This document shows positions 31,630 through 64,000 of a stretch of 64,000 nucleotides of DNA, piece after piece. The stretch comes from Corynespora cassiicola (taxonomy: Eukaryota; Ascomycota; Dothideomycetes; Pleosporales; Corynesporascaceae): assembly GCA_022059125.1 (NCBI GenBank), contig JAEUWY010000023.1, positions 1,674,001 to 1,738,000 on the forward strand, read 5' to 3'. The position numbers were made by a program, and so were the translations under genes. Under the pieces are notes generated by a model. That model did not search any database. It was not told where the DNA came from and saw only the letters and a list, made by a program, of their open reading frames with translations. Position 1 is the first letter of the stretch. Every line of letters begins with the position of its first letter.

Positions 31630-33390
31630 ATGGTCTTGGCATGGGGCTGCCACGAACAAAAGCCACAAACACCTTTCCACCGACAACCTCGCACTTTAAC
31701 CACAATATCACTCCAACCACAAACCTCACTGATCTTTGGTGTTATTCCCCACGGCACCCGATACGACATGCCCCAACCACTGGCCGTAGACATGCGTTCC
31801 ACCTCACACGAGTTTGGATCGGCCCACGCGATAGACAACAGTATTAGACTTTCTTCAAATCCAATAAACAACCGTCCGGAAAAGACCGACCCAGGAACAA
31901 ACCCAAATTCTGTTCAAGGCGCGATGGTGGATCCATCGTATGGAACGCCCTTGTCGTGTCACACTTGTTACGCTAGTGATCTTGGGAGCTACATTCCCTC
32001 CCTTGACTGCAACTCAGTGATTCCAGAGGAGATTGGCAACCAGTATCTATTCACTCAGTACAACATCTTTGGGGACTTCAACTCTGGTCAAGTCGGCCCA
32101 CGCAGCTATCTTCCCGGACAGACGGGCCGTTGCAATGCTGGAGGTTATCAACCTTGTTCGGACCAACTGTTTAACTCAACACCCTCAACAGACTATGGTT
32201 ATTCCGACTTCTACTCCCCAGATGAGCGCATCCAGTGAGTTTTTACTAGATCTCCCCCTTACCCCGCTTTAGTCTGATAATTCGCAGATTCTACGGATTA
32301 AATCAAGCTTATTCAATTCCTCTCAAGTCTATCGAAAAACCTCCAGAGGACACAGACGTATCCCCATTTATGCTCCCATCGTCCGAAGAAAACCAGCAGC
32401 AGATCTGGGAAATTGAGGACAACGAGTCCACCCCCACTAGTTCCGAGTCTCCCTGCGAGGAACACACAAAGGCCACAAAACAAAAGCGAGTGCTACCGGC
32501 CAAATCCGCGCGAGTCAGTGCAGCTCAGAAGAAGCTTCATTTACTGGCCAACTATGACCTACCGACCTATGACGGAGTCAAGCTGAGCTTCAACTCTCAG
32601 CATGAAGCCAGTGCCGCGTCCCAGGATCGTATCGCTGACTCGGAGCTTGACTGGTCTTCTCCGCAGGATGACGATACTTTGCCTACAACGGATGAAGAGA
32701 GGTCAGAAGTCGTGCGCCGACTGTTGGGAGCTATGCTGGAAACCAACCACTGCAAAGACCCAGGCTCTCGATCTTTTGCTCATCGCTGGAAGGAGGGAAG
32801 CACATTCTACCATGTGGAGGACATGGAGAGGGTATGCTGGGAAATACAGGTAAGACACAGCCCCAGACTAGAATGATATAGCACTGACAATTAACTTTAG
32901 GAGTTCGCAGAGAAACTCCATAGAGAGGGTCCCAGGATCCTTTCCATCCACGACAAGAACTACCTGGGCATTGTGGCGAAGACAAAAGACCTGAAATTTT
33001 CTGACCGCATCCAGCTCATCATGACGTTGATGGTCGAATTCAAGAGCCGATGTGACAAACTCATGAGGGGCGGTGCCGTCCAAGAGTATGTCGCGGCACC
33101 GCAGGAGGTGCTCCGCACTGGCAGAGTGAACATAAAGTCCAACAAGGACCGCCAGGCTTACCTCATCGTAGGACGCAAGGCAAAGATGGCTGGTAAGTGC
33201 ATCCTCTCAACTGATTGGAGCTCTTTCTAATATTTTTCTAGAAAAGGCTAAGTCTGCTGAGGCAAAGGCCAGCTCGGGTAGGCGGACCCGTAAGCGTGCT
33301 CACAGCGAAGTCCCCGAAGACGAGGACGAAGGAATATCACATGGAATCGCTGAACGTGCCAAGACCAGGAAGCCACGAAAGATTGCTTAG
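31630..33390 (+). CDS. Uncharacterised five-member family, paralogue A
   Basis: Four exons (31630-32234, 32288-32849, 32901-33192, 33242-33390) encode 535 residues; a start at 31768 would remove 46. The first half is rich in Ser, Pro, Asn and Gln and probably disordered. The shared domain lies at about 32.64-33.17 kb: LDWSSPQDDDTLPTT, VRRLLGAML, FAHRW, CWEIQ-EFAEKLHREGPRIL, LKFSDRIQLI, FKSRCDKLM, VAAPQEVL, NKDRQAYLIVGRK. The second intron splits the domain exactly between CWEIQ and EFAEK, the same place as in paralogues C and D. The tail is strongly basic (GRRTRKRAH, KTRKPRKIA), suggesting a nuclear protein. No known function. Confidence 0.75.
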
Positions 33391-34488
33391 ATGTCGATAC
33401 AGCGAGATTTGTGTGGGAAAGACGATGAAGTGTTGCATTTGGTCTCCCAGATTTGCTTTACTACTTGGACGAGTAGCTTTTGAGGGCAGGTACCCCTGTT
33501 GAGAACAGGTCTGGAATGGATATAACTCCTCCATGGTTGCTAAATACTTTATCAAATTGAATTACATGATGATTCTATCTCCATTATTGTATCTGAGTAT
33601 TTACCTGGTAAAATAATAAAATATCGGTTCTTTGCTAACCTGATTTGACGATGTTGCGGTATAAAAGAAAGCTTTTAAGCTGAGAAGGTTTTAAGGATTA
33701 AGAAAGCATAAGTTACTGGATAATTTTCAGGCTTGCTGTATAGGTAACCTCCAGGGCGACGTATTAAGTATTACAGCTCATGAATACAATGAAGCGAGTG
33801 CTTATAAAACTTAGCCCCCCAATTACAACCGACTATTGCTGGCCAAAGCCCCTCTCTATGATCCTTTTTTCTTGAGCATAGCATCTCGCTTCATATTTGT
33901 GTTCCTTTCATGCGTTGTTTTTTCATAACAAACACAGAATTGTAGTCGCAATTGAAATCCGGCACCCAAAAAGGCGTGATTAATAACAAAGAAGCTTACC
34001 AGCTTCACAATGTGAAACTTTCTAACAGTTTATTGTGTTGGTGCTAGACATAGACAATTAGACTACACATATTAATGATTTTTAGTTTATTACAGCCCAG
34101 GTACTACATAACGAGAACTTTTGCTTTAAGCCTAATTTCACGCCTATGTCCGGTCTAAATTTGTCTAAGTTCACATTAGAAAATCAGTTTGAAACGAAGG
34201 TAAACGATTCACTGATATGAAATTTCCAAGATATCGCTTCCCAGATACTTCCAATAGATCAGGTGCCCATCAGTGAATTGACGTACGTGACACAATTCAC
34301 TCCCACAGCCACTCTAGGCCATCCCCACTCCCTATATAGTTCCACTCTGGACATGGAAGTACCGTCTTCAACCCAGTAAGCCTACTGCAAACACTACTTT
34401 GCAACTGCACATCGCAAACAGCATTCAAAAACGATTCATTCTCAACCACTGGGAACGCCAACGCAGACACAGCAAAGGAATCAACATT
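33391..34488. other. AT-rich spacer between paralogues A and B
   Basis: About 1.1 kb, visibly AT-rich and without open frames of note. It could be an old repeat-derived spacer, but I recognise no transposon protein or terminal repeat. Confidence 0.5.
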
Positions 34489-36351
34489 ATGTCTCACCAA
34501 CCCCAGTCACGCAAAGCATACATAATAGATTCAAACTCCTCTCAGACAATAGGAATTCATCACGCATCAGCGGATTCCTTTCTCCAGCACAACTCGTCAA
34601 TACCACCAACTGGGACAATGGAAGGTGGTAAACGAGAAAGCAATCAGCCGCAGAGAGTGCATCTCCTGTCCCAGAATGAGTACATCCAGTCTCAGGCAGG
34701 TTATGATCAGTCTCAAGGGGATTATGATCAATCTCATGGAGAGTACGGTCAGTTCCAGGGAGAGTACGGCCAGCCCCACAAGGAACATCGCCAACATCCT
34801 CAGAATTTGACTGGGTACCCACCCCAATTTGCACCACAGCAGATCTTTCTTTACCAGTCTAATTCTATGCCTCAAATGCAACATATTCCAACTAAAATTC
34901 AGTATCCATACCATATGTGGCAAGAACAGGCTGCATCTATGCAGCCTGGGATGCCTCAGTGGGCTGATAGCATTGAGACACCCCTGCAAGATCCAGCCAG
35001 CTCAAACAGTGGGTCGGGCCAGGGTACTCCTGATACAATTCCGTTCTTTGATCGAAATCAAAAGCGAAATCTAGTCCATACCCCTGACCCTACCCCAAAG
35101 GGATATCAGAAGGTACCGGAGGTTGCTCTTGAGGAAGACAAAGGTGTACAGAGTGACGACGACGAGCCAGAGTTGCTCGATGAGACACGAGTCAAGCCTT
35201 CGGTTATTCGACGAAAGAATCCCTCCACGGGTCTTTACTTTAACAGCCTGGAATCTGCAGAGCACGATTGTCATGGGCCTGAATGGCGCTGCCCGAAACA
35301 GGACCGTACAATCCCTAGAACAAACGAGACCAAGGCTGTGTACGTTCGTGATCTTGTCAACGCCATGATGAACCAAGACAACATTGAAGACAAAGCAACA
35401 GGTCGTGTTCTAAAGAAGCGTTGGACAAAGTACAAGGGCACTGGCAAGTCCTACTACAATCCGAAGGAAGTTGAACTTGTGGCTTGGCGAATCATCGACA
35501 AGATGGTTCGTCTTCATGTGGAAGGACCAAAAGTCCTCGATTGCCATGACGTTGAAGCCCACAATAACTTCGAAAAGAGCAAAGAATTGAACTTTCGGGA
35601 GCGTTATGCCATCTTCAAGACGATTGCGTATCACTTCAAATCCCGAGTGGACAAGATGATGCGCAACGAAGGCCTCGTGACTATGATTGCGAATCCTCAA
35701 GAGACGCTTCGAGCGAGCAGGGGCAACCGAAACCAGAACGATCTTCGTCAAGAGTGCCTCTTTGTTGGACGCAATCATATGAACGAGGAGCGTGAGCGTC
35801 AGGAAGAAGCGGAGGGATATCCGAACTTTGCAAACGACCCTGTCAGCCCCGATCAATTGTCTCCTATTGACAATCATCAAAAACGCCCTCAGCTCCCTCC
35901 AAATCTCAGAAAGATTGTGCATCAAGATCGCGTCAAGAAGGGCCCAGTAGTCGGTAAGGGCTCCACCGCGCTAATGCAGCACTTTTATCGTGCAAATGGG
36001 GGAACGAATAACCCGACAGTGAATACAGCAAGACCTGTAGACCAACACAATACTGCAGTCCAGGAGCATACAGAGTTAGATCATGATGTCCACTGGGGTC
36101 AATGGGCAAATGAATTCCTAGAGCAGGATTCCGCCCAGTCAGGACTTCCAGCGAACGTGCCACACTCCATTCGAGATGGTAAAGAGGGAGGAAGTGCTAA
36201 TGAGGGTCTTCATACACCAGAATGGCTATTGGCTCAGCCTCTTTGGCCCCTGCCTGGCCTCAAGCGAGGATATGATGAGGTTAGTAGCGAAGAGCCGTCG
36301 CCGATTGAGAGTCCATCAGATGGCCGCTCTAATAAACGAGCAAAGCGATAG
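34489..36351 (+). CDS. Uncharacterised five-member family, paralogue B
   Basis: A single-exon 620-residue protein. The start at 34489 (MSHQPQSRKAY) is the first ATG in frame. Residues about 67-103 are an imperfect tandem of seven-residue units such as GYDQSQG, DYDQSHG and EYGQFQG. The rest of the N-terminal half is rich in Gln, Pro and Tyr and probably disordered. The shared domain spans about 35.22-35.78 kb: TGLYFNSLESA, WRCPKQDRTIPRT, VRDLVNAMM, LKKRW, VELVAWRIIDKMVRLHVEGPK, LNFRERYAIF, FKSRVDKMM, IANPQETL, NQNDLRQ. It has no intron in the domain, unlike paralogues A, C and D. The tail SNKRAKR is a likely nuclear signal. Confidence 0.75.
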   Translation: MSHQPQSRKAYIIDSNSSQTIGIHHASADSFLQHNSSIPPTGTMEGGKRESNQPQRVHLLSQNEYIQSQAGYDQSQGDYDQSHGEYGQFQGEYGQPHKEHRQHPQNLTGYPPQFAPQQIFLYQSNSMPQMQHIPTKIQYPYHMWQEQAASMQPGMPQWADSIETPLQDPASSNSGSGQGTPDTIPFFDRNQKRNLVHTPDPTPKGYQKVPEVALEEDKGVQSDDDEPELLDETRVKPSVIRRKNPSTGLYFNSLESAEHDCHGPEWRCPKQDRTIPRTNETKAVYVRDLVNAMMNQDNIEDKATGRVLKKRWTKYKGTGKSYYNPKEVELVAWRIIDKMVRLHVEGPKVLDCHDVEAHNNFEKSKELNFRERYAIFKTIAYHFKSRVDKMMRNEGLVTMIANPQETLRASRGNRNQNDLRQECLFVGRNHMNEERERQEEAEGYPNFANDPVSPDQLSPIDNHQKRPQLPPNLRKIVHQDRVKKGPVVGKGSTALMQHFYRANGGTNNPTVNTARPVDQHNTAVQEHTELDHDVHWGQWANEFLEQDSAQSGLPANVPHSIRDGKEGGSANEGLHTPEWLLAQPLWPLPGLKRGYDEVSSEEPSPIESPSDGRSNKRAKR

Positions 36352-36904
36352 TGATAGACTTGCCTCGTAACGCACATCATATGTCTAATACAAAGCAATG
36401 AAGATTTAAACTCATTGCTAACCATGTAACGAAATCAACGAAGTGATGACTATATTACAAACAATATGAACTACATTGGAGGCCTGCCAAGCATGTTCGA
36501 GACATTATGCCAAGCTCGCATTTTTTCTGCCACAAAGATGAAATGGCACATTTATTATTCGGTAGGAGTACTGTCATGACGAGTGGAAGGACGATATTTA
36601 CCGTCTTGGGTGGAAGGTTGCTTGATGTGTCTCTTAATAGTTCATACAAAAATACAGTTTCTGCAGCAATATTTAGAAGAAGAAAAAATGAAAATTCGGT
36701 GTGAGCTTACAGAATACTGTTAATAGGGGTGGCTGTGTATGTGAAATTGAAAGGTGGTTTGCATGGCGAGGAGTGAAAGGCAAGAGGTTGAACCGACTTT
36801 CCGCAGACGGTGTCCTCGATCTTCTGCTTGCGAATTTCTCCTTTACACCCAACACCCAGCTCACATCTTGATACCTCACATTTTATTTTGAAAGTTTTTC
36901 CGCG
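36352..36904. other. Intergenic spacer
   Basis: About 550 bp between paralogue B and the next gene; promoter and 3' sequences are expected. No open frame of note. Confidence 0.5.
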
Positions 36905-38632
36905 ATGTCGCAAAACAATCGATATCAACATATTCGTGAAGGTCAGGTGCCCGCTGAGCAACCTACTGCTTCCTTTAATCGATCGTGGCTAGCCGCTCCG
37001 CAGTCACAGCCTCACGCTTCCGGCAATCCACAACACCTTCAACCACCCAGCCCCCCACAGAACACTACAATGCTCTCACCATCCTTTTGCAAATTCGATG
37101 AGAGTCCCTACACCGTCGGTCAGAACCAAGTTCCACAGCCTCGACCTTTTGCTTGCCGCCACTCACAACCCAACCCCGCACAGTACACTATAGGTTTCTC
37201 ACGAGACGTTTTGAATTTCCTTAACAGTCGGAGGAGGGAGGCGCGTCTGCGTAATCGGCGGCCAGATCCCCTCACTGTTCGTCATCACCAAGCTCCATCA
37301 GCCCGTCGACGAGGTCTACTGGTTGGTCGAAGTTCTCGATCAGGCGGTCGACAAGCGAGTTCAGGTATGTCAACTTTTCCACTTTATGATCCGACTACTT
37401 TAAATTCAAGCAATTGAAGTAACTTTGCTTGAAAATTCATTGAATTTTATCAAGATGCAGAGGTCAACCCAAGCCAACCAGCCTCTTCGGTTCCTCGCTC
37501 CCCTGAGCTACCGGGTTGTCCGAGTACCCCCGAACAGCGGCCTATGACAAACATAATCGGGAGGCAGCGCGAAGTAATAGCTTCACAATCTCGGATTATA
37601 CAATCACAGCATTCCGGATCTCATCCCAATGAGCCATCACCGCCGTCACTGCCCTCACAGACGGAGCAAGACCCACAAGCACAGCGTGCCTTACAAAACG
37701 CTCAAAACTCTGTCTCTATCATGCGTCAACATACCAACCCAGTACCCCGGTTCCCCGCTATGTCTGCCATAGCTAGGCCTCAAGCCCTACAAACGCCCCG
37801 ACCAGTCTTGGAAGAGTCGGACGATTCGCCCACTCTCTCCAACGACGACACACCAGACCAAACCACCAAACGCCGAGAATCCAGCGACGGCGGCCGCAAA
37901 ACCGTGCTCGGCTCCGGTATGCTACCTGAAAGACTCTCAATGAGAAGCAAATCCCCTGAAAATGCCAAAGCCGCCCCCGAGGAGATTAGAGCTGCGGCTA
38001 GGTCCGACTATCCTAAGAGGGTTCTGCGGCGATCGGAGCGCCAGTCTACACGCCTCGCCAGCCATGCTCCATCGCACCACGACGAAGCTCTCCCGAGCGT
38101 CGAGAATGCGGTTGCGGATACCAGTTCGAAGGGAAAGCCCTCTGAGCCAGCTAACGATGAGGAAGGAACCGAGGATCTCGATGAGTGGCTTGACGAGGTG
38201 CTAGAATGCGACAACGATTCGGAGCTCAGCGAATGCAGCCTGGCTACCGACACCGAGGTGGAAGACGGCCGCGAATCTGACGCAATCTCTTCCACTGCAG
38301 ATGCTGAGCGCAGCGCCACTGAGCAGTTAGCCGCCCCGAATCCTGTCCCGGCTGCCCTACCTCACAGGTATGGACCATCTGGCCAGCCGCTTCCGCGCTT
38401 TGAATATAACATTTCGGACAAGCTCAAGGGTGTTGCCTGGGCGCTTCCCGAGAGCGACTGGTTCGAGTATGTATGGCTCATGGAGCAGTTTGTGCAGGAG
38501 AGGATTTCGGAAGAGAGGCTTGTCAGACGCACTGATCGGCTTTTTCGCACGTACGATCTGGAGATGAGGGGGAGGATTAGGCGAATGGTGAATAAGATGG
38601 TTTTGGAGGATGTGGTGGGGGATTTTGAGTAG
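36905..38632 (+). CDS. Disordered acidic protein with helical C-terminal segment
   Basis: Two exons (36905-37364 and 37461-38632) encode 543 residues; an alternative acceptor at 37454 adds two residues. The protein is rich in Gln, Pro and Ser, with Arg-rich patches (RRREARLRNRR near residue 110) and a later acidic stretch (DEEGTEDLDEWLDEVLE). Only the last 90 residues look folded: ISDKLKGVAWALPESDWFEYVW followed by charged helices (ISEERLVRRTDRLFRTYDLEMRGRIRRM). I do not recognise this segment, and it does not carry the W-P-TIP, AW or RLH-EGP motifs of the adjacent paralogues. A nuclear scaffold or regulator is possible, but nothing shows it directly. Confidence 0.65.
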
Positions 38633-39222
38633 AGGATGAGGGGGGAAGGGGCTAAGGAGAGAAGTGGAGATGGGGGAGGAAGCAAAGATGAGGATGGTGA
38701 AGAAGGCTTGCCTGGCAGAAAGGTATTTGGTAATAATCATCCGCTTTGTCCACCTCTAACTTCACTCTTCACCAAGGACCTCTGAATCTCCGCGGAACTC
38801 CCTCCCTCTTTTTTTTTCCCACTAGATACCGCCTCCCCGACCATGAGAACCACATATGCAGGTTGCTGTGGCATCCACTTTTCCCTCTACTTGCACGAAT
38901 ACGAATAGTCAAGAGCGATCCGTCATGAAGACATGTGCCAGCCCACTATGAAACTAGAGGGTAAAATGGTGGATTAGATACCAACAAAAGAGCATGCGGA
39001 CGAAAGAGAAACAAACTTGTCCCAGGATGGCCTAAAAGACAAAAGCGTTCATGGACCCAGTGAAAACCGTGATGAAATTAACCAGCTAGAAGCATACCAA
39101 ACAGGCAATCCATTCAATTCGTCCACACTCGCAAAAGACACCAAACGTATCATTACACCCCCTCTAAACGACCATCATACCCTCATATCCCTCTTTTTCC
39201 ACGCCAAAATACCATCCTCAGC
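38633..39222. other. Convergent intergenic spacer
   Basis: About 590 bp between the ends of two convergent genes, with a T-run near 38810. No gene seen. Confidence 0.5.
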
Positions 39223-43931: not shown

Positions 43932-44164
43932 GGGGGTTTATGGCCTGAGGCGTGTGAATAGATGGTTGCGGTCAGGCTGTGTTACAATGCAAGAATTAGC
44001 ACTTCGAGTACTTTTTTTTTCTTTCGTTTGTAGAGCAACCCAATCAGGAGTCTCCAATCGTAAATTTGTATAAATTCTTTTTTCATATCCACATTCATCC
44101 ACCCCCTCTTTTACGACCGATTCGATCTAACCTGCACGTCATCAACAAACCGTACACAAGCGCA

Positions 44165-44792: not shown

Positions 44793-45523
44793 GGTGCGGC
44801 GGGGTAGTGGATTTGGTCGGAGGAAGAGTGTCGCAGGGCGAGGCAATTGATGTCGGAGAAGGAGGGAAGAAGAAGAAGAAGAAGCAGCGAGGACGTGTCG
44901 CAGAGGAGAGACGCGCAGCATGAATGATGTAGTGTGTGTCGTCGGAGGGGGGCCAGGTGGATGGGCGAGGCTACCGTCGGGAATGACAGCTGCGCCGAAT
45001 CGCGGAGCGCGTCGCGTCGGCCATCCCAAAGCGGTAGGTGGGGGTGGGTGGCTCGCTTAGCGCGACAGGACGGGGCAATCAGCCCGGGGGGAGGAAGGAG
45101 GGGAGAGCGGCGGGCGGCCCTGGTTGGAGGGGCAGAGCCCGTCTGAAAGTTTTTTTTTTACCCAGTTTGGTCAGCCTTTTCGGCCATGCTGCTGCTAGAC
45201 ATGATTGCATTTCCACTCCCGCACGCCGCCGGTCTACATATTAGGGAGGGGAGGGGAGGAGGGCAAGGAAAGCAATAGGATAAAACGGAGACCCGCCAGT
45301 CAACAAGTCGTCTGCGTCCGACGACGTCGCCGTGAAAAAAGTAAATCATCCTCCGCCGGTGCAGCCTGTCGCGCACCAATTCGTGAGACCAACGCCATCC
45401 CATGCAAGAGCCTCTATGTAGAAATGAAAACGGAATCGAATGTTTTTTTTTCTTCTGTTCTTTCGCGTGCCATGGAGCGAGGTGGGGTGGGGTGAGGTGA
45501 GGTGAGGTGAGGTGATGAGACGC
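44793..45523. other. Intergenic spacer with GAGGT microsatellite
   Basis: About 730 bp. It holds a (GGTGA)n run at 45481-45516, just beyond the APRT stop codon, and an upstream purine-rich GAAGAAGAAG run near 44867-44885. No gene seen. Confidence 0.55.
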
Positions 45524-46243
45524 CTACTTCTCCTGGCTGGACAGCAGCGTGTAGACGGGCGCATCGAGCTTGTCGCGCCCGTGCAAAAAGTCGAGTTCGA
45601 GCATGAAGACGTAGCCCAGCAGGGTGCCGCCGAGCTTCTTCACGAGGGAGCCGGCCGCCGCAGCAGAGCCGCCTGGGGATAGTCAGCACCAGATACACAG
45701 CCGTCCTTCTAGGTTGCACACACCTGTGGCGATGATGTCGTCCACCACCAGCACCTTCTGTCCCGGCTTGACGCCATCGGCCTGCATCTGGAAAAAGTCC
45801 TCGCCGTACTCCTTCTTGAAGCTGGCCGTCTCGCAGGGGCCCGGCAGCTTGCCCCTCTTGCGGACGGGCACAAAGCCGGCGCCCAGACGCAGAGCCAGGC
45901 TGGGGCCGAACAAGAAGCCGCGAGCGTCGAGGCCGACGATGACGTCGGGCTTCTCAAAGGCCTGCGAGACGTGCAGCACGAGGGCGCGCACCAGGTCCTC
46001 GTGCAGGGCTGGGTTGGCGAAGATGGGCAAGATGTCCTCGAACAAGATGCCCGGCGACGGGAAGTCGGGGAACTGGCGCAGGGCGCCCTTCAGCCTTAGC
46101 GTAAGACTGGAGAGTTCGGCGGCGGTGGAGGCACCGGAGGCGGCGAGCCCTCCTTGGGAGGCATTGTCGGTGGTGTTGGAGTCGAGGGGGTCGGCCGTGG
46201 CGGGAGGGTCGACGACGGGCTGCGAGGAGGCCAGGCCGGACAT
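45524..46243 (-). CDS. Adenine phosphoribosyltransferase (APRT)
   Basis: Two exons (45724-46243 and 45524-45672) encode 222 residues, longer than the usual 180 to 190 because of a Ser/Ala/Thr-rich N-terminal extension of about 45 residues. Core motifs are LRQFPDFPSPGILFEDILPI, VIVGLDARGFLFGP, GAGFVPVRKRGKLPGP with the flexible loop, and the PRPP site VLVVDDIIATGGSAAAAG, which is split by the intron and restored by joining. The enzyme makes AMP from adenine and PRPP in purine salvage. The next gene upstream on the same strand includes AIR synthase from purine biosynthesis. The upstream 1.7 kb have many short simple repeats. Confidence 0.92.
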
Positions 46244-47956
46244 GATGGAGGAGGGGGGGAGGGGAGGGGGGGAAGAAAAGGGAGACGTCAGGACAGGACC
46301 GACGGCAGGGCAAGGCAGCAGCAGTGAGCAGCGAACAGCGCGCAAGCAGCGAACAGCAGCAGCAGCAAGGGCGTGGGCGTGGGCGGATGCGGGATGCGGA
46401 TGCGGCGTGTGAGAAAATGGACGCGGACTGGCGCAGGCTGGCGCACACTCGACGCACTCGACGCACTGGACGCGCCCCGGCCAGACAGGACAGAAAAAAA
46501 ACCACAGCCAGACGGGCGCCAGGCTCGCGGCAGACTCGCGGCCGGCGTGGATTTGTGGGACAGCCCACCGGCGCCCGTCGTCCTGTCGTCGAGCTGCCCT
46601 GTACAGTCGCATCGGCCAGGTTCAGCGCTTCAGCCAGGCTTGCCCGGCCAGGCCAGCCATGTCCACCATGTCCGCCATGCCCGCCATGCCCGCCCATCGC
46701 AAGCCATGCTCCCTAGCATGGCCAGCCCCTCCAGTGTGCCATCCCTACTGTAGTCACCCCAGCAGCCGTGGCGGCCGTTGGCTTATCGCCTCACCTCCTT
46801 CCACTTCGCATGTGTCCCACGCTCCCAACAAAACACATGAATCCCCAGCTGGGCATTGCACACTCGCCGCGCGCCCAATCTATTCTTGATGACTGCCCCC
46901 GACCCCCGCGTCGAAGCAGCGCTCAAAGAGGGCCTTGGAATCTCGATACGGGGGCGATGCGGTGCGGTGAGCGGTAGACTCGGTACTGGCTGGCTGGCGC
47001 ATTTCACACCACCACCACCACCACCACCACCAACCTTCCCTACCCAACCCAACCCAGGTACTCGCGCGCCGTATTACACCTTGATATGAGATAAAGGCCG
47101 GCCAGCTGTGAAACGCCTCTTGCAGCCCTCTTGCAGCCCCTCCCCACAAAAAAACGCGCGCCACCCTGCAAAATACCTGCAATACCTGCCATACCTGCCC
47201 AAGCTGCTGCAGCCACACTCTGACTCTCCCTCCGGGCTCCCAGGGCTCCCAGCCAGCCCCGCCGCCTCCGCCGGTGCGCACGCAGACGCACACTTATTCA
47301 GACACTGGCACACACACACATGCTCTCTCGGCCATCCGACTACCTGCCTACCTATTCATTGCCTAGCCCCCGAGGCGCTTCGACCTGCCTCGACGTGCGC
47401 CGGCCACCGAGCCGCTTCGCCTGTGCCGCCTGCAGCACCGCTCCTCGCCTTGTCTGCTCCTCGGATAGCGTCGTACCCCCCCCAAGCACCGCACCGGATC
47501 GTCAGTCAGTCTGCTTTGGGCGCACGCCATGCCGCAACGGCTCTTCCCATTGTCGGTCTAAGCTGTATCGAGTAACTGGAATATATCAACGCTGGCCAAA
47601 CCCAACACCGCTACCACCGCAACACGCAACACGCAGTTACTAGTAGGTAATGAGTCCCTCTGCACGCCGTATGGGCCTGTATGTGCGTCTATGCCTCCCT
47701 TCTCCGCAGTGGGCGGCATCTGAAAACAAAAAAGACCATGCCCATCACGGTGCGTGCCACCCCCGACGACGCCGTTGCTTGCCAGGTACCTTACCCCGCG
47801 ACCGCACCGCACGTTGCAGCCGCCACGGCTGCCACGGCTGCCACAGCTGTCACAATGCCCGCCGACGTGCCGTATCCTTGTGTCATTGAATTCAAAAACC
47901 CCTTGGCTCCAGTGACGACCTTGGTTCGTGTCTCCATTTCACGTGATGCTACCCGC
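46244..47956. other. Intergenic region rich in short repeats
   Basis: About 1.7 kb between APRT and the fusion gene. It holds a minisatellite of CCATGYCCRC-like units near 46657-46696, a (CCA)n run at 47005-47033, and long C-rich tracts. Open frames here are repeat-driven and I call none of them as genes. Confidence 0.55.
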
Positions 47957-50110
47957 TCAACTCCACACCGACATGTTGCGCACAATGCACTCGTCGTCAC
48001 CCGTGCGCTTGACGAGCTTGCCCACGGTGAAGACGTGCTCGCCGTGCTCCTGCAATATCTCCGTGGCCGCCTGCGCTTTCTCGGGGCTCACGGCAATCAC
48101 CATGCCCAGCCCAGTGTTGAAGGTGCGGCAAAACTCCGAGTCCTCAAGCCGGCCCGCCTGCTTGAGCCACCTGAACACGGCCGGTACGGGCCACGACGTT
48201 GCGTCCAGGTCGGCTGCAAGGGTGTCGGGCAGCATGCGGGGGATGTTCTCCAGCAGCCCGCCGCCGGTAATGTGCGCCATGCCCTTGAGCAGGCCCTTTT
48301 GGGTGGCCGCCAGCAGCGGCTTCACGTAGATCCTGGTCGGCGTGAGCAGACTGACGCCCACCGTCTCGTTGGCACTCCAGGGCGCCGCGTCGTGGAAGGA
48401 CAGGCCGTTGCGCTCGACAATCTTCCGCACAAGCGAAAAGCCGTTGGAGTGGACGCCGCTCGACGCCAGTCCCAGCAGCACGTCTCCCTCGGCCATGGAT
48501 GACGTATCAGGCAATATCATGGCCCCCTTCTTTATCGCCCCGATGGCTGCACCTCCTGCATCGTATTCGCCCTCCTTGTAGAGGCCGGGCATCTCTGCAG
48601 TCTCGCCACCCACCAGCGCTGCTCCCGCCTGCCGGCAGCCATTGGCAACCCCCTCGACAAACTTGACCGTGCTCTCCACGTCCAGCTTGCTGCACGCATA
48701 GTAGTCGAGGAACATGAGAGGCTCGGCTCCCTGCACCACCAGGTCGTTGACGTTCATGGCCACCAGGTCGATGCCCACCGTGTCGTGCTTGCCCATCTCA
48801 AAGGCAATCTTCACCTTGGTGCCGATGCCGTCGATGGCACCCACCAGGATGGGCGACTCGGCGTATCCCGCAGCCTCCAGGTCGAGCAGGCCGCCGAAGC
48901 CTCCAATCTTGCCGTCGGCGCCGGGGCGCTTGGTCGTGGCAGTCAGCGACTTGATGCGCTTGACGAGCTCGTTGCCGGCGTCGATGCTGACTCCAGACGA
49001 GGCATACGTCAGGGCCTCCTGGGCCTGGGCCTGGGCCTGGGCCTGGGTCTGCTGCTGCGTGGGGCGGACGACAGTGGTGCCTTCCTCGGCAGGCTGCAGC
49101 AGCTTCCAGTCGCACTCGATGCCCTCCTTTTTGAACTCGCTCAGCAAGTGGTTGGCAATGGAGTCGAAGTTGTCCGTGGCCAGGGCCAGAATGGTGGGGC
49201 CGGCGCCCGAGAGGCATATGCCTAGCAGGCCGGGGTGGGATTGAGGGGTGACGGACTGGAGGATTTCTGTCAGGCCTGGGATAAGCCCGCGACGGTACGG
49301 CTGGTGGAGCTTGTCTTGCATGGCAGTGTAGATCATGTCGGGGTCTGGGGGGGACTGCCCGAGCGCAGTGGTCAAGACGGCCAACCGCTGCATGTTGAAG
49401 ATGGCGTCCTTGCGCGAGTACGACTCTGGCAGCACGGCGCGGGCCTTGGCTGTCGAGACCTCGAACTGGGGGATGATGCAGATGCACTTGATCGCAGGCG
49501 ACCACTGAAACTTGGTGAAGTGGCCGATGTTGAGGGGCGGCTCCGGCGGGCGCAGGCCCGTATCGACACCACCAGCAGGCTCGGGGAGGACCTCAGAGAG
49601 GGGAATCTCCAGACGCTCAGTGTCCTCTGGGGACAGCTCATTCAGGTATGTGCCCACGAAACCACCGTACAGTGCGGCAGCGACATTGTCTGGGTGGCGC
49701 TCCTCCATGAGGCAGTAGTCCAGCATGCGCGCCTTGGAGAGCTTCAGGTCGCCCACCTCGTTGGCTAGGTGGACGCCAGCGACAATGGCAGCGGCCGACG
49801 AGCCCAGACCGCGCCCCAGAGGGATGGGGTTCTTGACATGGACGTGTGTTTCGGCGGGAAAGGCGCGGACGCCATGGCAGCGCAGGACGTAGACGGCGGT
49901 GCGGGTGATCAGGTTGTCTTCGGCGACGAGGGGTACCGACTCTGCGTTGACGCCCTCGTAGGAGATGCGGCAGTTGAGCGAGTGCTCGGAGGTTTCCTTT
50001 TTGGTGACGGTGACCAGGACCTCGAGGTAGACGTTGAGGGCGAGGCCAATGACGTCGAAGCCGGGGCCAATGTTGGCCGACGAGCACGGCACCTTGATGA
50101 GGGTCGCCAT
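47957..50110 (-). CDS. Fusion protein: homoserine kinase (N) + AIR synthase (C)
   Basis: One uninterrupted frame of 717 residues from MATLIKVPCSSANIGPGFD. Residues 1-350 are a complete homoserine kinase: GHMP ATP loop PIPLGRGLGSSAAA, then RHPDNVAAALYGGF and SGAGPTILAL; it phosphorylates homoserine for threonine synthesis. A Gln/Ala-rich linker (residues about 350-365, coded by a CCTGGG repeat at 49018-49050) leads to residues 366-717, a complete AIR synthase (PurM type): GVSIDAGN, GAIDGIGTKV, AMNVNDLVVQGAEP, GGETAEMPG, SSGVHSNGFSLVRKI, HITGGGL, FNTGLGM. That enzyme closes FGAM to AIR in purine synthesis. There is no stop, intron signal or likely start codon at the junction. Fungal AIR synthase normally sits in the ADE5,7 protein with GAR synthetase, so this pairing is unusual. 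Confidence 0.9.
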   Translation of the reverse strand: MATLIKVPCSSANIGPGFDVIGLALNVYLEVLVTVTKKETSEHSLNCRISYEGVNAESVPLVAEDNLITRTAVYVLRCHGVRAFPAETHVHVKNPIPLGRGLGSSAAAIVAGVHLANEVGDLKLSKARMLDYCLMEERHPDNVAAALYGGFVGTYLNELSPEDTERLEIPLSEVLPEPAGGVDTGLRPPEPPLNIGHFTKFQWSPAIKCICIIPQFEVSTAKARAVLPESYSRKDAIFNMQRLAVLTTALGQSPPDPDMIYTAMQDKLHQPYRRGLIPGLTEILQSVTPQSHPGLLGICLSGAGPTILALATDNFDSIANHLLSEFKKEGIECDWKLLQPAEEGTTVVRPTQQQTQAQAQAQAQEALTYASSGVSIDAGNELVKRIKSLTATTKRPGADGKIGGFGGLLDLEAAGYAESPILVGAIDGIGTKVKIAFEMGKHDTVGIDLVAMNVNDLVVQGAEPLMFLDYYACSKLDVESTVKFVEGVANGCRQAGAALVGGETAEMPGLYKEGEYDAGGAAIGAIKKGAMILPDTSSMAEGDVLLGLASSGVHSNGFSLVRKIVERNGLSFHDAAPWSANETVGVSLLTPTRIYVKPLLAATQKGLLKGMAHITGGGLLENIPRMLPDTLAADLDATSWPVPAVFRWLKQAGRLEDSEFCRTFNTGLGMVIAVSPEKAQAATEILQEHGEHVFTVGKLVKRTGDDECIVRNMSVWS
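49018..49050. repeat. CCTGGG hexanucleotide repeat coding for the fusion linker
   Basis: Five near-perfect CCTGGG units read on the minus strand as alternating Ala-Gln codons. The repeat forms the linker between the two enzyme domains and would vary in length by whole dipeptides, keeping frame. Confidence 0.8.
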
Positions 50111-51088
50111 GGCGGGGGGGATTGCACAGAGGAGCTGCACAAAGGATCTGGGGATCGGTCGTGGGCGGGTGCAGAGTCAGAATGCGCACACAGAAGGCGC
50201 ACTCGAGGAAAAGTTTTGGTGGGCCGAAAATCATCCCACTTCCACTTCGGGCCGCGGGGCTGCACCGCCGACATCGCTACTAGCACGCCGCCTACCAGCG
50301 CCCTACCAGCACCCTACCAGCACTCCCGACTAGTCGCGGGGGAGACGCGAGCTACACTCGTGCCCAGGTATGTATACACCACCCGCACCTCAAAGCACCG
50401 TGGCTGACGAGACCTCCATCCCTCCCAGCGTCAATGGCGACGGCCTCCACCTCGGCAGCCCCCCCCAACACGGTGCCGCCCTTTTTCCACTCTGAATCCC
50501 CTGGCCAAGCCATGCCGATCTGCCTTGGTACTGACACCGTCCTCGCTGATGCCTACTCATCCTCCCGGAGCTTACGAGCACATGGTTGGACAGCTAAGCT
50601 CCCACTGATGATGAAGGTGCCGGTTTGCACCGCCACAGCGCCACCAGTCCGGCTGCACTCATCCTTTCAATGTGCAATTCTGCAATGCTGTGCGACCTCA
50701 ACCACTCACACGTGCAGCAGCAGCGGTTGCTGACCCGGTGAACACGTGCTCCTTCGTGAATCGCAGGTTCCGGTACCTCGCCCCGATGATTCATCGCCAG
50801 GCAGCTGTCTCGTCTCTCACTCTCGTCAACAACAACTAGCCTCAAAAGTACAACCAGGCAGCAAACAGGCAGCCACACGAGCCGTCTGTTACCCCTTGTG
50901 ACGAAGCCTATAAGTGAGGGCATCCCCGTGCATCTTCCAGCCTTGCCCGAGTGTCTGCTTTTCCTCCAGCCCTCCTCCCACTGGCGTGCTACCACCCTCT
51001 TTCGTACCCCCAGCGACGGTCTTTTCTCTCAGTTTGCACCACCAGAGGCCTTGTCCACTATTTCCAAGGCGCATAAGAGCTGTCCAAG
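50111..51088. promoter_or_regulatory. Divergent promoter between fusion gene and AAA ATPase
   Basis: About 980 bp between the two divergent starts. A short tandem CCCTACCAGCA-like repeat lies near 50290-50325. Open frames on both strands lack family features. Confidence 0.45.
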
Positions 51089-56499: not shown

Positions 56500-56876
56500 G
56501 GGGACGATAAGAGGGGGACTTAATGGTAAGATTGGTATTGGCGGGAAGGGTTGAGTAGGAGGAGGGAAGGGAAAAGTGGCCATTTTTAGTAAAAGTTTTA
56601 GATGATGGTAATGAGGCTATGATAGTAATGGTTAATACGGAGATGCTTATAGACTAAATCGATTTTTCGGATTGCTATTTCTTGGTTCTTGTGGCAATTT
56701 CCCAATTTGACATTTGCTACTTCACAAATGTTTCTCGAGACATGTTGGTAATCTTGGCTTGAATTACCGTATCATCTCTAATGTCCTACCGGACTAAAGG
56801 ATGCTTCTAAGAAACGTTCATATATAAAACGGTCATTAAAAACAAAGCCCTCTCCCATAGCAAATTCTCCCTCAAA
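56500..56876. other. Convergent spacer before the second paralogue cluster
   Basis: About 380 bp, AT-rich in its second half. It marks the change from the GC-rich conserved block to the AT-richer paralogue cluster. No gene. Confidence 0.5.
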
Positions 56877-59204
56877 CTATGTCAGCTTCGCCTTCTTCGC
56901 ACTACCCTTCTCCCCACCCTCCTCACCCTCATCATCCTCACTCCGCGCCCGCTTCACCGATCCCAAATCCGCAACCAAACTTTGCTCCACGCCCTCGATG
57001 CCCTCCCCACCCGGCGACATGGAATCCCGCTGGCCCAGACTAGCAGCCAGGCCCTGCTGCGCGCCGTCGAAACTCGCCGGCGGCGTGGGACTCTGCTCCG
57101 TTAAACCGAGCAAATCGATAGCTGAGAGGGGTCCCGTGCCGTCTAGAAGTTCGAAGAGATCGGCGGATAGAGCCGAGGGCGAGGGTGGGAGTTGGTATGG
57201 GGGCCATTCGAGAGAGGGGTCCTGGGGGATGGACTGGCTTGGGTCTTGGATCGATGGTTCGGGGAGATGGGGGGTGTCTTGGTAGTTGGGATTAGCCATC
57301 TTCGCCTGGAGATGGTGGTGCGAGGGGGCCTGGAAATGCTGGTTCGTGGGGTGCGCGTCCGCTGGCTGGACTACTGGGGCTGGTGCTTGTGTATGATGCG
57401 CATGCCCCAACAAGTCTTCGTATACGTAATCAGGAATATCTTGCTGGAAGGCGCGATGAAAATCGAGCTGGTTAGAGTTCTCGAGCTCGTACTTGAGAGA
57501 TGCGCTGACGACTTGAGGGTTGGACTGGGATTGCTGGGGTGCAAAGCCGCCCTCCGAAAATGGATATGAACCCTCACTCGCGTGCTCTCGCGCAGGCTCC
57601 GCGAAAGAACTTGCCTCGACATGGTCGCTGGGCAGGGTGTCCGTGGGAATAAATGCCTCGCCCTGAGCTTCCAAAGCATGGCCCTCATGCGCCAATGGAG
57701 AAGGTCCTTTGCTTGCCGTCTGAGTCTCGTCTTCCTTGGCCGGAACATCTGGTCCGTCAACAAAGCCTGGAATCTCAGATATGGGCTTGGGTTTCGGTTT
57801 CCTGCCTCGTCCCCGGCGACGAGGGGCAGGGTTGTCGCCCGGCTCTTTGGCTTCATGCTCGCGTGCCTCCGAGAGACGGTTCTGGCGGACGTCGTTGTTG
57901 GTGCGGTTCGCGAGGCTGCAGCTCTTGATTTGGCTGGGGTTCGTGATGAGATTCTCGTAATCCCCAGACACTGCGGAATCGCATCGCGCTTTGAAGTGGT
58001 GCAGTATGTGGACGACGGTGTCCAATCGCTCCTCAAAAGTTAGGTTGCGGCCCCTTGAAGCCGTCTCTACTTTCAGTGGGTCGTTGGTGCGCATAATGTT
58101 CGGGCCTTCTGTGTGAAGGCGGATCATGAACTCCTGAGATGATGTCAGTACTGCCGTGACGCTGTTCTGAGATATGGGACCTACTATCATCTGCCAAGCC
58201 GTAACTTCTAAGACTTGGTTACCATAGAAGTTCTTTTTGCCAAACCACCGCTTGTTCAAACTGGGGCCTGTGTTCTTGTCCCAGAGGCCATTGAGGTTTT
58301 TGATGGCCCTGAGGATTCGCAGCACAACTCTCTGCTTATGTACATTAGTCATTGGAATTGTACTGTCATTTCTCGGATACGACCAGCTTCCCGCTGGCCG
58401 TCCTGCGATAGCGGATTCGTAATCGCTGAAATATAGACCATTTGTTTTATCTTCATCTTCCGTGCCAGATTCTTGAGCAATATGGGGAACAGTAACAGGA
58501 GGGGCGATGGATTTCTGAGGAACACTGTCGGACACATTGTTGGATATGACACGCACTCCCCTGGTAGCGTTATTTCCATAACTTGTGGAATTGGAACCTC
58601 CTTGCAATTCATAATATGCAGGGGGAGCTTCATTATGATTTTCGAATATCCCTCCATCGTTGGGGGGATTCGGATTGATTTGATAACCGTTCATCGCTGC
58701 ACTATGTCGAATATTAAACCTTGGATGCTGTACCTGGCCCATAAGTCTAGGCCGCATTACTTCAGCTGGGTGTTGATTTCCTTCATGTGTAGAATTTGGG
58801 TAAGATATTTGGTTGGAATTCCGATTGGAGTTTCCGCTATAGTGTTCCTGGGTTACTGAGATCTGGTTCGGGTTCGAGTGGTATGGATAGTAGTAGTTGT
58901 TACATCCAAACTGAGGATTCACATTTAGACTATGGTCCCATGGTCCTCCACTGGCACTCAGATTGGCACCCTGAAATCCGATTTGGGGAGTCAAAGGCAT
59001 TCCCTGTGTATTGGAAGCTTGATTCATAACTTGGTGTGTCGAATTAAGATCTCCTGTAAGAAATTTGTTGCCGTTGGAAGGGCTCTGTACTATGAAATAT
59101 TGATTCACATTGCCGTGTTGCTGATTGTTGCGAGAGCTAGCAGGTTTATTCATCATATCCGAGGTTTTGAGTGTGCTGGTGAGGCCAATGGGTTGAGGTG
59201 GCAT
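56877..59204 (-). CDS. Uncharacterised five-member family, paralogue C
   Basis: Two exons (58185-59204 and 56877-58133) encode 758 residues. The 51-nt intron (donor GTAGGT, acceptor CTCAG) is a multiple of three with no stop, so an automatic frame call would keep it as 17 extra residues. Comparison with paralogues A and D shows it should be removed: AWQMI-EFMIRLHTEGPNIM. The N-terminal 240 residues are Asn/Gln/Pro-rich. The shared domain covers about 58.45-57.88 kb: NGLYFSDYESA, WSYPRNDSTIPMT, LNKRW, the split motif, LTFEERLDTVVHIL, FKARCDSAV, NRTNNDVRQ. An AT-hook-like RRRGRGRKPKPKP follows, then a long Pro/Gln region and the basic tail SAKKAKLT. Likely nuclear; function unknown. Confidence 0.78.
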   Translation of the reverse strand: MPPQPIGLTSTLKTSDMMNKPASSRNNQQHGNVNQYFIVQSPSNGNKFLTGDLNSTHQVMNQASNTQGMPLTPQIGFQGANLSASGGPWDHSLNVNPQFGCNNYYYPYHSNPNQISVTQEHYSGNSNRNSNQISYPNSTHEGNQHPAEVMRPRLMGQVQHPRFNIRHSAAMNGYQINPNPPNDGGIFENHNEAPPAYYELQGGSNSTSYGNNATRGVRVISNNVSDSVPQKSIAPPVTVPHIAQESGTEDEDKTNGLYFSDYESAIAGRPAGSWSYPRNDSTIPMTNVHKQRVVLRILRAIKNLNGLWDKNTGPSLNKRWFGKKNFYGNQVLEVTAWQMIVGPISQNSVTAVLTSSQEFMIRLHTEGPNIMRTNDPLKVETASRGRNLTFEERLDTVVHILHHFKARCDSAVSGDYENLITNPSQIKSCSLANRTNNDVRQNRLSEAREHEAKEPGDNPAPRRRGRGRKPKPKPISEIPGFVDGPDVPAKEDETQTASKGPSPLAHEGHALEAQGEAFIPTDTLPSDHVEASSFAEPAREHASEGSYPFSEGGFAPQQSQSNPQVVSASLKYELENSNQLDFHRAFQQDIPDYVYEDLLGHAHHTQAPAPVVQPADAHPTNQHFQAPSHHHLQAKMANPNYQDTPHLPEPSIQDPSQSIPQDPSLEWPPYQLPPSPSALSADLFELLDGTGPLSAIDLLGLTEQSPTPPASFDGAQQGLAASLGQRDSMSPGGEGIEGVEQSLVADLGSVKRARSEDDEGEEGGEKGSAKKAKLT

Positions 59205-60093
59205 TTTGAGAACTCGGACTTCTCTATGGTAGTTGAAGTCGTTGAGTGGTTTTAACCGTGTGAGAAGTTGCTAGAATTCCGAATTCGAGGTTGAGTAGTC
59301 ACTGGTAGTGGTTTGGTTGGTAGAAGAAGTACGGTCAGGCGAACATGGGCTTAAATGAATATGAGTTGACGGCCCACGATCTAGGTCGCCTGACGGGCGT
59401 CATCGTCTTTTGTCACTAATAGCTGAGATTGGAAAGATTCAGAAGTGGTGTAGTAGTTTTGGTTCTTTGGAAAGCCCCAATTCACTTCGGATCCACATAG
59501 GATTCAAACGAATGGTTCATGACGTTGCCGTTTCCCTTCCCAGTAAAAGTACAGCGTAAGGAGGTACTATAATTAGAAAACAGTGGTGAAAATACACAAA
59601 CAAAAGAGTTGAAGAAGTCTCTATTTTTAGTTTGGTGATGGACAAAACCTTATCAAGAATGTCTTTATAGGCTTACTTTTCGGGTATGGCCACAGTTTTC
59701 TAGTGCATGACATCCCTGGAATAGGCCATATAGCCAAGCAGAAGCTTACAACGTAGATATTCCAGTTCATCACTCCAAGTATACAGTTTGATGTAGCTTT
59801 TGATATCTGCTTTGTGGATTACTATATTTATGTACATTATTTGCGGCAGGATTTTTCTTTTGAGAGTGGAGTACTAAAGAATCGCGATTGTGTTTTGTCC
59901 GACTTTTGGGACTATGCTTTCGAAATGATGGCTTCCTTAAGGATGCGGAGAAGATTTTTAAAAATTGATAATGAAAAAATTGAGTTTCACGGCAATTTCC
60001 AATTCTTGTGTATACTGTGGTTGACGAGTTCCCATATGTTGGATTGTCTAATTGGCGATACTATCAACTCTCCCCAATAAGCGCGGCTAGCCT
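59205..60093. other. AT-rich spacer between paralogues C and D
   Basis: About 890 bp, AT-rich, without open frames of note. It must contain the promoter of paralogue C. No transposon feature recognised. Confidence 0.5.
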
Positions 60094-62237
60094 TTATTTC
60101 GATTTCCTCGGTCTACCCCTACCCCGTTTCATTACCGGCGCTTCATTCTGTTCATCCTTCGTCTCCTCGCGTCTACGTTTATTTGTCGGATCTGTAGAAT
60201 TCAATTGCCCGGCACTGTTGCGCATGGAACCACGCGTCTGGTAACGAGTCGAGCTGCCCAAGTTTGTAGCTGGTGATAAATTACTGGACTTTCCATTGTC
60301 TGGGCGGATTTTTGATTCTCTCAGAAACCCATCATGAATGGAACTCATGCCTCCAGTGAGCTCATCATCACCCCGAGGCGGCGGCTGATCGTCCGGCTCA
60401 TTCTCGGGACTATTGATATACTCTGAAAGATTTCCAGAGCCGCGCAAGGTGCCACTCTCTTTATTTGGTATCTCGCATCGGTCGTGAACACTTAAAGACG
60501 CACTTTTGTCACTACGATTGGGATTTGAACCAAGTATTGGACTAAAGGGGAATCCCGAAGTATTCGAAGGGGAGGCTGTAAGTTTGTCAGCTTGGATATT
60601 TGGCCAGTCAAAGAACATGTAACTAACCTGTATAAGTTTGCTTGGTTCTTCTTGTATACTTCCGCTTTCCATTTTTCGTTGATCCACCCTTTTCCTCTAG
60701 TTCGCGAGACTTCTTCAATCTGCCCTGACGATGATCGTTATTGATCCGGTTTGCGCTACAATTAGCCCCAATTTGTGTCGGAGCCATTATCAATGCTTTG
60801 CGGGGACCTTCACCTCCCATGACATGATCACAACGAGCCTTGTAGTGGTGCAAAACGTGCACCACCTTCTCCAATCGGGCCTGGAAAGTCAAGTTTTTCT
60901 CTTTCTGCGCTTTTTGGATAGCGGCAGGATCATCTATGTTGAGTATCTTCGGGCCTTCTATGTGGAGACGAATCATCAAATCCTATCAAGTGATTAGAAG
61001 TTTGATATCGTGAAACATGACTAGGATGGAAACTTACCGTCATCTCCCATGCGACCTTCTCGACCCGTGCTTCACCGTAGAAATTACTGTTACTCATCCA
61101 ACGGTTTTGCAAGACCGAGCTGGTTCCTTTGTCATATATCCCATCAATATTCAACATTGCGTCTCGAATCTGAATGACAATTGCCATAGTTTGCTCTAGA
61201 GTGGTCGGTATTGAATAATCAGGCTGGGGATAGTGCCAGTCTGGAGCCGGAAAAGCTGCTGTGGCAGAAGACAGACTATCAAAATACAGGCCCGTCACTG
61301 AATTTTTCTTTGGAGTTCCAGAGGAAGTCTCTTTCATCTCAATCGGTATTTTCATGTTCGTTCCTACCATTGAGTCGAAAGCATCGTCGTAGGTATCGTA
61401 TGACATTGCGGCGTTCGGCAGCATATTACTAGGCCGAACACCAACACCGGATATCATATTATTACCAATCGTTGCCATACCCCCGTCATTGGAGAGATAT
61501 GACTGAAGTTTGGGGAAATTGCCCACACCTCTCCCCTGAAAAGGTACTTTGGCTCCACGGGCAAACTCGGGTAACTGTGGTGGCCAAAAGGTCCCATTCG
61601 GGAATGACACAGGATTTGGACGGAACGAATGAGCATTAGGCGTTGGCGGGAAGTACATTCTTGACACATCAACTTGATCAACGGTGCCTCTATTCGGCAC
61701 TCGTGAATTGAGTGTCTGTTGCTCATCTTGTTCCTGATTGAAATCGAGTTGCGATTCAGTGATGCTTCTCAAATCGCCTGTCTGGACATTGTCTACCGAA
61801 TTCTTTTTCCGGTCTGACATGCGCCTATCCTGGATCTCTGGATCGATTACCTCATTTGTGCAGTTTCCAGCAGGGTATGGATGTATGTTCAATTCGAAAT
61901 AATTGGTATTGCCGTTATTTATATATGGCATACTTCTATGAGGATATGGCGGCAAAGGAGGCTTGTATTGTCGTCCGTTCAAGAATACGCCTCCAGAAAA
62001 GGTGTGCATGGGCAGTTTTGGAACGAAGCCATGGCCCTCAGAAGCTGAAACTCCTGTAAGAAGACCAATATCTTCAAGACTTCTGGAAGCCTGAGGCGTA
62101 ATTGTGTATTGGCCTGACATTATGAATGCATCAATCTCGTCTTGGCTCCTGTCTTGTAGTGCGCCATAATCTTGCGCAACTGGGCACTGGCCGGTACCTG
62201 CAGATGATGACGCATTGGCTTTCAATGGGTTGTTCAT
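60094..62237 (-). CDS. Uncharacterised five-member family, paralogue D
   Basis: Three exons (61038-62237, 60628-60982, 60094-60575) encode 678 residues from MNNPLKANASSS; an upstream in-frame ATG at 62348 would add 37 residues including a hydrophobic stretch, but paralogue C also opens with an M-N-K/N-P context, so I prefer the inner start. The shared domain runs about 61.31-60.68 kb: TGLYFDSLSSA, WHYPQPDYSIPTT, IQIRDAMLN, LQNRW, VAWEMT-DLMIRLHIEGPKIL with the intron at the conserved place, LTFQARLEKVVHVLHHYKARCD, NRINNDHRQ. A second intron after the domain corresponds in position to the last intron of paralogue A. The C terminus KRGRGRPRKSK is a canonical AT-hook, so DNA binding is plausible. 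Confidence 0.8.
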
Positions 62238-63245
62238 GTTTGAGTCAGCAGAATGAATTGGTTTGGTTGAAGTTTCTTGCTGGTTGAATTCGTTTGGAGG
62301 TTGATTGAGTAAGCTAAGGAGTGTCAGAGTCAGAACAAAAAGAGGCATTTTATAACTGCTTAACCTTATACTGTACTATCACATGATATATATGAGTACA
62401 CTTTCACTCCATTCGAGTATTCTCATTTCGCAAATATTTCAAAGTGAATGACAAATTTCTTGCCATTTCCAATAGTAGCTAGGCCCATGTGACTTTAGCT
62501 TATGTAAGAGGTTGATTTTCAGTATATGTCCATGAAACAGCTACGTTATGTGAAAATAACACATATTAAATTGCTACGAGATGAGGAAATCTACGTGTTG
62601 TGTACATAATTTATATATTAGAATATGGGCTTTGCCATCTAATGATTGTTAGAACAAGGTTCGACTGAATAGTTATTTGTTATAGAAAACAAAAACTCTC
62701 ATTTAGTTGTCATCACACAAGAAGTACAAAACTTTAGCTTTCTAATACTTCTGAAATAAAGATATTTTGAAATTTTTTTCAGAAAATATAATTTAATAGC
62801 AGCTAGAACTACAAAAAGAGTGCTAATATAAGATTACAGCTATATAGCTCTTCAGCCATTTGGATTTGAAGATGTTTGGAACTGTAAGGGTACCATAATC
62901 AATCAATGGCTGCTATTTAAGCAATCGATATTATATGAAGACGATGTTGGTATTTAACTACCTCTCATTGAATATGCAAAGAGCACTGAGGGTTACATAA
63001 CTTAATTTAGGTTACGATCACAAAGACATGGTCATTCAGTCACAAGGCAACATTGACACTTAATTTCAGAAAGCACACACTTATATAAGACCTAATACGT
63101 CAAAAAGAACTGAAACAAGCTCAAATGGTAGCCAAGTACACCTGATATAGAGTACATGGTTATATAGCGCCTCCTGATGCAATACCCTTCCATGTGAAGA
63201 GAAAATACGACAAAAATACAAGAACAAAAAAAGAAGACAAAATTT
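62238..63245. other. AT-rich spacer between paralogues D and E
   Basis: About 1 kb, the most AT-rich part of the window, with no open frame of note. This could reflect old repeat-induced point mutation or simple drift; no repeat unit is visible. Confidence 0.5.
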
Positions 63246-64000
63246 TCAGAAGCATGTGCGCTTTGGAGAACTATAAACGCCGGAAGCAAGATCCTGCTCG
63301 CTCTCCTGGTTGTTGTCGCGGCCGCGCTTCAAGTTGGATGCGCCGCTTGCTCGCTTCTCTAACTCGACTCCGTTTCGAATCCGGACGGCTTTATTCGAGT
63401 TCGCAACTTGGTTGGTGCGGGTACGGGTGATAAGACGCTTTGGAGCGCCGACGACTTGGTGTAAGCGATCGTTTTTGAGTAGATCTTCGCAGGTGCGCTT
63501 GGATGATGAGAGAAGTTCGAGGATGGATTCGATGCGCCCCTGGAAAGTGAGACCTTCGCTGGCCTTGATATCAGCGCGAAGGGTCTTGTCGGCGAGATAA
63601 CTGTCCCAGCCTTGTTTGTGAATGCGAATAGTCAAGAGTAAGATGCGCCAGGCGATAATGGCAAAATCCTTTTCCTCGTAGAAGGAAGCATTGCGGCCCC
63701 AGCGATTCAGGAAAGGTTTGCTCGTGGTCCGCTCACGGACGTCAGTTGTGTCTTTAATGGCGGCGATGAGCCTCTTTATCAAGTCCTTCTTTTGCTGCTT
63801 TGTCTCAGGGATGGTAATGTCAGGGGAGGGTGGGTTCCAGGCGAGGGCCTCGTCCCTAGCGAACGTATCTTCGAAGGTGTCAAAGAAGAGATCATCGTCA
63901 TCATCCCCATCGTCATCGTCGTCATCGTCGGAATCTTCCTCTTGAAGAGCTTCCGGAGACTGTTGATTTGTCGGTTGAAAATCGGATAATTCGATGCTGG
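63246..64000 (-). CDS. Uncharacterised five-member family, paralogue E (partial, 5' end outside window)
   Basis: The frame is open from the stop at 63246 to the window edge, about 250 codons, so the N terminus is missing. An Asp-rich run (near 63893-63940) precedes the shared domain: DLFFDTFEDTFARDEALAW, NPPSPDITIPETK, LIKRLIAAIKD, FLNRW, FAIIAWRILLLTIRIHKQG, LTFQGRIESILELL, VVGAPKRL, TRTNQVANSNK. It is the most divergent copy: the usual RLHxEGP reads RIHKQGW, and there is no intron at the conserved site. The tail carries NLKRGRDNNQ and SSPKRTCF, short basic patches. Confidence 0.72.
   Translation of the reverse strand, partial: SIELSDFQPTNQQSPEALQEEDSDDDDDDDGDDDDDLFFDTFEDTFARDEALAWNPPSPDITIPETKQQKKDLIKRLIAAIKDTTDVRERTTSKPFLNRWGRNASFYEEKDFAIIAWRILLLTIRIHKQGWDSYLADKTLRADIKASEGLTFQGRIESILELLSSSKRTCEDLLKNDRLHQVVGAPKRLITRTRTNQVANSNKAVRIRNGVELEKRASGASNLKRGRDNNQESEQDLASGVYSSPKRTCF

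Follow-up and report, generated by a model that had tools for sequence, protein, structure and literature searches.

An unnamed domain family in two gene arrays of Corynespora cassiicola, with a predicted fold resembling TFIIS domain II

The window analysed in this study is a stretch of 64,000 nucleotides from Corynespora cassiicola contig JAEUWY010000023.1 (C23:1674001-1738000), and the genome searched comprised 44.35 Mb in 23 contigs. The window carries five genes, named here A to E, whose products have one domain of about 185 residues in common. A first-pass annotation of the sequence had placed five paralogues with one shared domain at these positions, and this observation was confirmed by our gene models, in which introns were set at GT-AG sites that keep the reading frame. 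The genes and their domains are as follows (window positions):

31630-33390, + strand: paralogue A, four exons (31630-32234, 32288-32849, 32901-33192, 33242-33390), 535 amino acids
32235-32287, 32850-32900, 33193-33241, + strand: introns of A, GT-AG model
32577-33246, + strand: shared domain of A, residues 299-488, split by introns 32850-32900 and 33193-33241
34489-36351, + strand: paralogue B, intronless single exon, 620 amino acids
35224-35790, + strand: shared domain of B, residues 246-434
59204-56877, - strand: paralogue C, one 51-nucleotide intron, 758 amino acids when spliced
57843-58445, - strand: shared domain of C, residues 254-437
58184-58134, - strand: intron of C, 51 nucleotides, inferred from the alignment, position shared with A, D and the further members F and G
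62237-60094, - strand: paralogue D, three exons, introns 61037-60983 and 60627-60576, 678 amino acids
60689-61298, - strand: shared domain of D, residues 314-498, split by intron 60983-61037
64172-63246 (window part 63246-64000), - strand: paralogue E, intronless, 308 amino acids
C23:1738172, - strand: start of E, 172 nucleotides beyond the window edge
63354-63896, - strand: shared domain of E, residues 93-273

At 678 amino acids, the D model matches the annotated NCBI protein P0002 in length, and both D introns are thereby supported. The intron of C (58134-58184, - strand) contains no in-frame stop, and an unspliced transcript would enlarge the central part of the domain by 17 residues.

All ten BLASTP pairs among the five proteins were significant over the same region (10/10), with E-values, in a database of these five, from 1e-53 for the best pair (C-D) to 2e-14 for the worst (B-E). 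When the five domains were aligned, the motifs were collinear, and 22 of the 195 columns were invariant. The collinear domain described by the first-pass annotation therefore stands, but its motifs are not universal, NRW being replaced by HRW in A and by KRW in B and C, and lacking in F. Across the nine members now recognized, eight columns (P, D, A, G, R, K, P and N) are invariant.

The confinement of the family to five members within 33 kb did not hold. The genome contains at least nine, the array runs past the window, and a second array lies on another contig, C13. With E as the query, a genome search picked up two weaker matches on C13 and another outside the window. The additional members are:

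C23:1740657-1741934, - strand: F, upstream of E, three exons, 391 amino acids
C13:1044341-1045642: I, in the second array
C13, start at about 1049436, running down past 1048001: G, three introns modelled
C13:1052795-1054591: H, open frame

Six members thus lie in 36 kb of C23, where A and B are read in one direction and C to F in the opposite one, and three (I, G and H) lie in 10 kb of C13, all on the same strand. In leave-one-out profile searches, each of the nine scored 91-178 bits, and the maximum among 4500 shuffled decoys was 11.2; a profile built from A-F alone gave G 26.6, H 61.0 and I 43.3 bits, against a decoy maximum of 12.1. Genome-wide searches were limited to single-protein queries (B, D, E, H, I, an F exon and a G exon, with few candidates scored), so nine members is a lower bound. 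The nine-member profile detected no tenth member in the window and nine 10-kb loci, which hold F-I and flanking sequence. A C12 match to the F-exon query (E 0.66) was dropped, as its frames lacked the family motif. Directly upstream of F is a gene with a heterokaryon incompatibility (HET) domain (L007 4201-5871, - strand, equal to C23:1742201-1743871).

The family probably grew by local duplication, and the local expansion proposed earlier is supported. The split between the arrays received 100/100 support in the tree, which pairs C with D as sisters and leaves the place of F, on a long branch, uncertain. A, C, D, F and G have a phase-0 intron at one common position, which B, E, H and I lack, and a second position is common to F and G. 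G carries an apparent GC-AG intron (L014 401-450, - strand) where F has a GT-AG intron.

All nine domains gave chance-level matches only in Pfam, and so did the five window domains in NCBIfam (bacterial and archaeal library) and PHROGs. Among PDB sequences, the nine-row profile found no match and the five-member profile found one at E 0.21. The family has no entry in the Pfam, NCBIfam, PHROGs and PDB sequences searched, in agreement with the first reading that no named domain has these motifs. No mention of the motif string RLHxEGPK or of two locus tags was found in the literature.

Relatives were sought by protein searches over 5.8 billion sequences, in which matching needs shared 5-residue words. 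The B domain had no relative at E <= 0.01, while the five-protein alignment at E <= 1 and the D domain at E <= 10 each found one, P0001 and P0002 respectively, both from C. cassiicola of the Philippines and probably on one scaffold. P0001 is a partial orthologue of B (173/176 residues identical, in the B domain), and P0002 is the orthologue of D (638/678 identical). As D differs from P0002 at 40 of 678 residues, the two isolates are not the same. Shared 5-residue words occur in 4 of the 36 pairs among the nine domains, with at most two words, so relatives in other fungi at such a distance would be missed by the protein search, and the negative results therefore do not imply restriction to Corynespora. 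Similar motifs probably occur in hypothetical proteins of other Pleosporales. No relative was found in viral contigs (alignment query and one peptide pattern) or in bacterial and archaeal genomes (B domain query).

Only D was comparable in full between the isolates. Its domain differs at 5 of 181 residues and its flanks at 35 of 497 (Fisher p = 0.04), and the last 124 residues of the domain are unchanged. Of the suggested fast evolution, only that of the flanks is apparent in D. Together with the tails and flank composition described next, this variation fits a constrained domain inside flexible nuclear proteins.

Long flanks had been ascribed to all five window members, but those of E are short (92 and 35 amino acids). 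Compared with the domain, the flanks contain more P, G, S and T in every member measured, and hydrophobic residues are lower in most. A-E end with a basic two-part tail, a pattern picked after viewing these five proteins and near chance in A. The AT-hook of D and the AT-hook-like run of C were present as first described:

60097-60129, - strand: C-terminal AT-hook of D, KRGRGRPRKSK
57789-57821, - strand: AT-hook-like run of C, RRRGRGRKPKP

H has KRGRPK, with a GRPK core, right after its domain. A GRP/GRK scan of eight proteins (G excluded) found that D and H have a GRP core with basic flanks, that C has a variant, and that A, B, E, F and I have none; the AT-hook feature holds for D and H, with C as a variant, and not family-wide. 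These members resemble AT-hook proteins of the HMGA type, as D ends with RGRGRPRK and H and C carry KRGRPK and RGRGRKPK. On the other hand, the hooks are accessory in two to three of the eight members scanned, whereas the conserved part of this family is the helical domain.

The AlphaFold model of B (35194-35823) had a mean predicted local distance difference test (pLDDT) score of 82 and a predicted template modelling (pTM) score of 0.73, and that of E (63303-63896) had a mean pLDDT of 73.5 and a pTM of 0.65. TFIIS rows were prominent in the structure comparison of both models. The predicted shape of the domain most resembles TFIIS domain II, in shape only; it appears to be an all-helical, TFIIS-domain-II-like core lengthened by a PxxDxTIPxT segment at the N terminus and by insertions that separate the core helices. 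A viral fold library gave no significant match to the B model, and Medusavirus TFIIS, at row 9 (probability 0.30), was not taken as support.

The family differs from TFIIS_M (PF07500; TFIIS/Dst1, Bye1 and PHF3) by this extra segment and the insertions, and no sequence similarity is detectable. PF07500 was listed for none of the nine domain sequences up to E = 10, whereas the two genuine PF07500 matches of the genome, at 106.7 and 86 bits, exceeded the cut-off of 29.2. We read these as TFIIS (C8) and Bye1 (C4), and the fungus thus also keeps genuine TFIIS-type genes. Alignment by hhalign with seven TFIIS domain II rows gave a probability of 0.3% for the nine-member alignment and 0.1% for the five-member one, its power being limited by the shallow alignments. 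The helix-3 signature Y-K-N-x-x-R-S...N-L-K, seen in most TFIIS alignment rows, was found by eye in none of the nine family rows. In Bye1 and PHF3, PHD and SPOC domains stand beside the TFIIS-like domain; no Pfam match to either was found up to E = 1 in B, C (read through its intron), the first-exon frame of D or the window part of E, and no zinc ribbon matched in B, C or the scanned parts of D and E. A literature search on the TFIIS central domain with AT-hooks in fungi gave none with the TFIIS phrase among the matches listed, one on TFIIS-like uncharacterized domains in Dothideomycetes gave no such family by title, and one on family expansion gave none on C. cassiicola among the matches listed.

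Passages of one report describe that TFIIS domain II and the TFIIS-like domain of Bye1 bind the Rpb1 jaw of RNA polymerase II (PMC4100922). From the predicted shape, we infer that the family may play a role like such docking at the polymerase jaw. We therefore propose, at a probability of roughly 35%, that the genes form one unnamed family, probably nuclear and locally duplicated, with a TFIIS-domain-II-like docking module between flexible, polar flanks and, in A-E, a basic tail. The tails would carry the protein to the nucleus, and the AT-hooks, where present, would bring it to AT-rich DNA. The helical domain would dock a component of the transcription machinery, for which the Rpb1 jaw is a candidate; the members would thereby modulate transcription, and duplication would have diversified them. 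The nuclear location, the docking partner and the effect on transcription are presumed in this proposal. We assign a low probability to the further reading that a fungal lineage has evolved by tandem duplication its own private set of factors for docking at RNA polymerase II or chromatin, with a module that is like TFIIS domain II but keeps no TFIIS sequence resemblance, some of these factors being tethered by AT-hooks to AT-rich DNA.

The domain may instead belong to a large, perhaps widespread unnamed family of hypothetical proteins in filamentous ascomycetes that acts outside transcription, for example in self/non-self recognition or stress, its helical bundle being a common arrangement. 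The Foldseek matches, which taken alone were not significant, the HET-domain gene adjoining F and the similar motifs probably present in other Pleosporales agree with this view, but the nuclear-type tails in A-E and the prominence of TFIIS in both models argue against it, and we regard it as doubtful although still a serious possibility. The first-pass annotation had suggested a possibly DNA-binding nuclear family. Its nuclear part is made plausible by the basic and AT-hook tails, but a protein-docking module, TFIIS domain II, is what the predicted fold of the domain comes closest to. A family of DNA-binding regulators, in which the helical domain itself contacts DNA together with the basic or AT-hook tail, would agree with the GRP cores of D and H, which have basic residues beside them, with the variant in C, with the basic tails in A-E, and with one invariant R and one invariant K in the later helices; we consider it unlikely. 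The domain could also be KIX-like, docking activators or Mediator in disordered transcription co-regulators. However, the TFIIS rows stood 1 to 3 Z units above KIX and covered more residues, the KIX alignments reaching 79 and 75 residues only, and the family showed no sequence match to the KIX domain of Mediator Gal11/Med15; we rate this as the least probable of the explanations.

If the fold holds, a TFIIS-domain-II-like family invisible to sequence methods has undergone local multiplication in a fungus that is probably a plant pathogen, and a fungal expansion of polymerase-docking factors as regulators becomes testable. At a minimum, our data define a domain that the Pfam copy searched does not list; the anchors are its nine members, the eight residues invariant in them and a shared intron.

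The AT-rich patches noted at first are real, the G+C content of 2-kb bins falling to 0.41-0.49 in the patches (30-38 kb and 58-64 kb) from 0.53-0.64 between them. The usual thresholds for repeat-induced point mutation (RIP) are a TpA/ApT ratio above 0.89 and a CpA+TpG index below 1.03. No 2-kb bin of the window passed them (highest TpA/ApT 0.88, lowest CpA+TpG index 1.12), and the one intergenic stretch searched, 62300-63240, matched itself only; neither test thus supported an origin of the patches from transposable elements or RIP. Between B and a bestrophin gene, window 36872-38632 (+ strand) holds two long low-complexity open frames without a Pfam match, which are possibly one spliced gene and, by the nine-member profile, are not family members.

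Between the two clusters, one 718-amino-acid open frame (window 47957-50113, - strand) encodes GHMP kinase domains, which we take to be homoserine kinase, and a complete AIR synthetase. Elsewhere in the genome, AIRS_C was matched only twice, both times in one 1419-amino-acid frame on C4, presumably FGAM synthase given its two copies, and the GARS domain lies in a separate 400-amino-acid frame on C1. The usual fungal arrangement is a GARS-AIRS fusion (ADE5,7). With AIRS in the window frame and GARS on C1, this fusion seems to be split here, and AIRS seems instead to be fused to a threonine-pathway enzyme. A literature search for a kinase-AIR synthetase fusion found nothing beyond work on kinase classification. 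Adjoining this gene is a Pribosyltran (phosphoribosyltransferase) gene (window 45683-46621, - strand), which we presume to encode adenine phosphoribosyltransferase.
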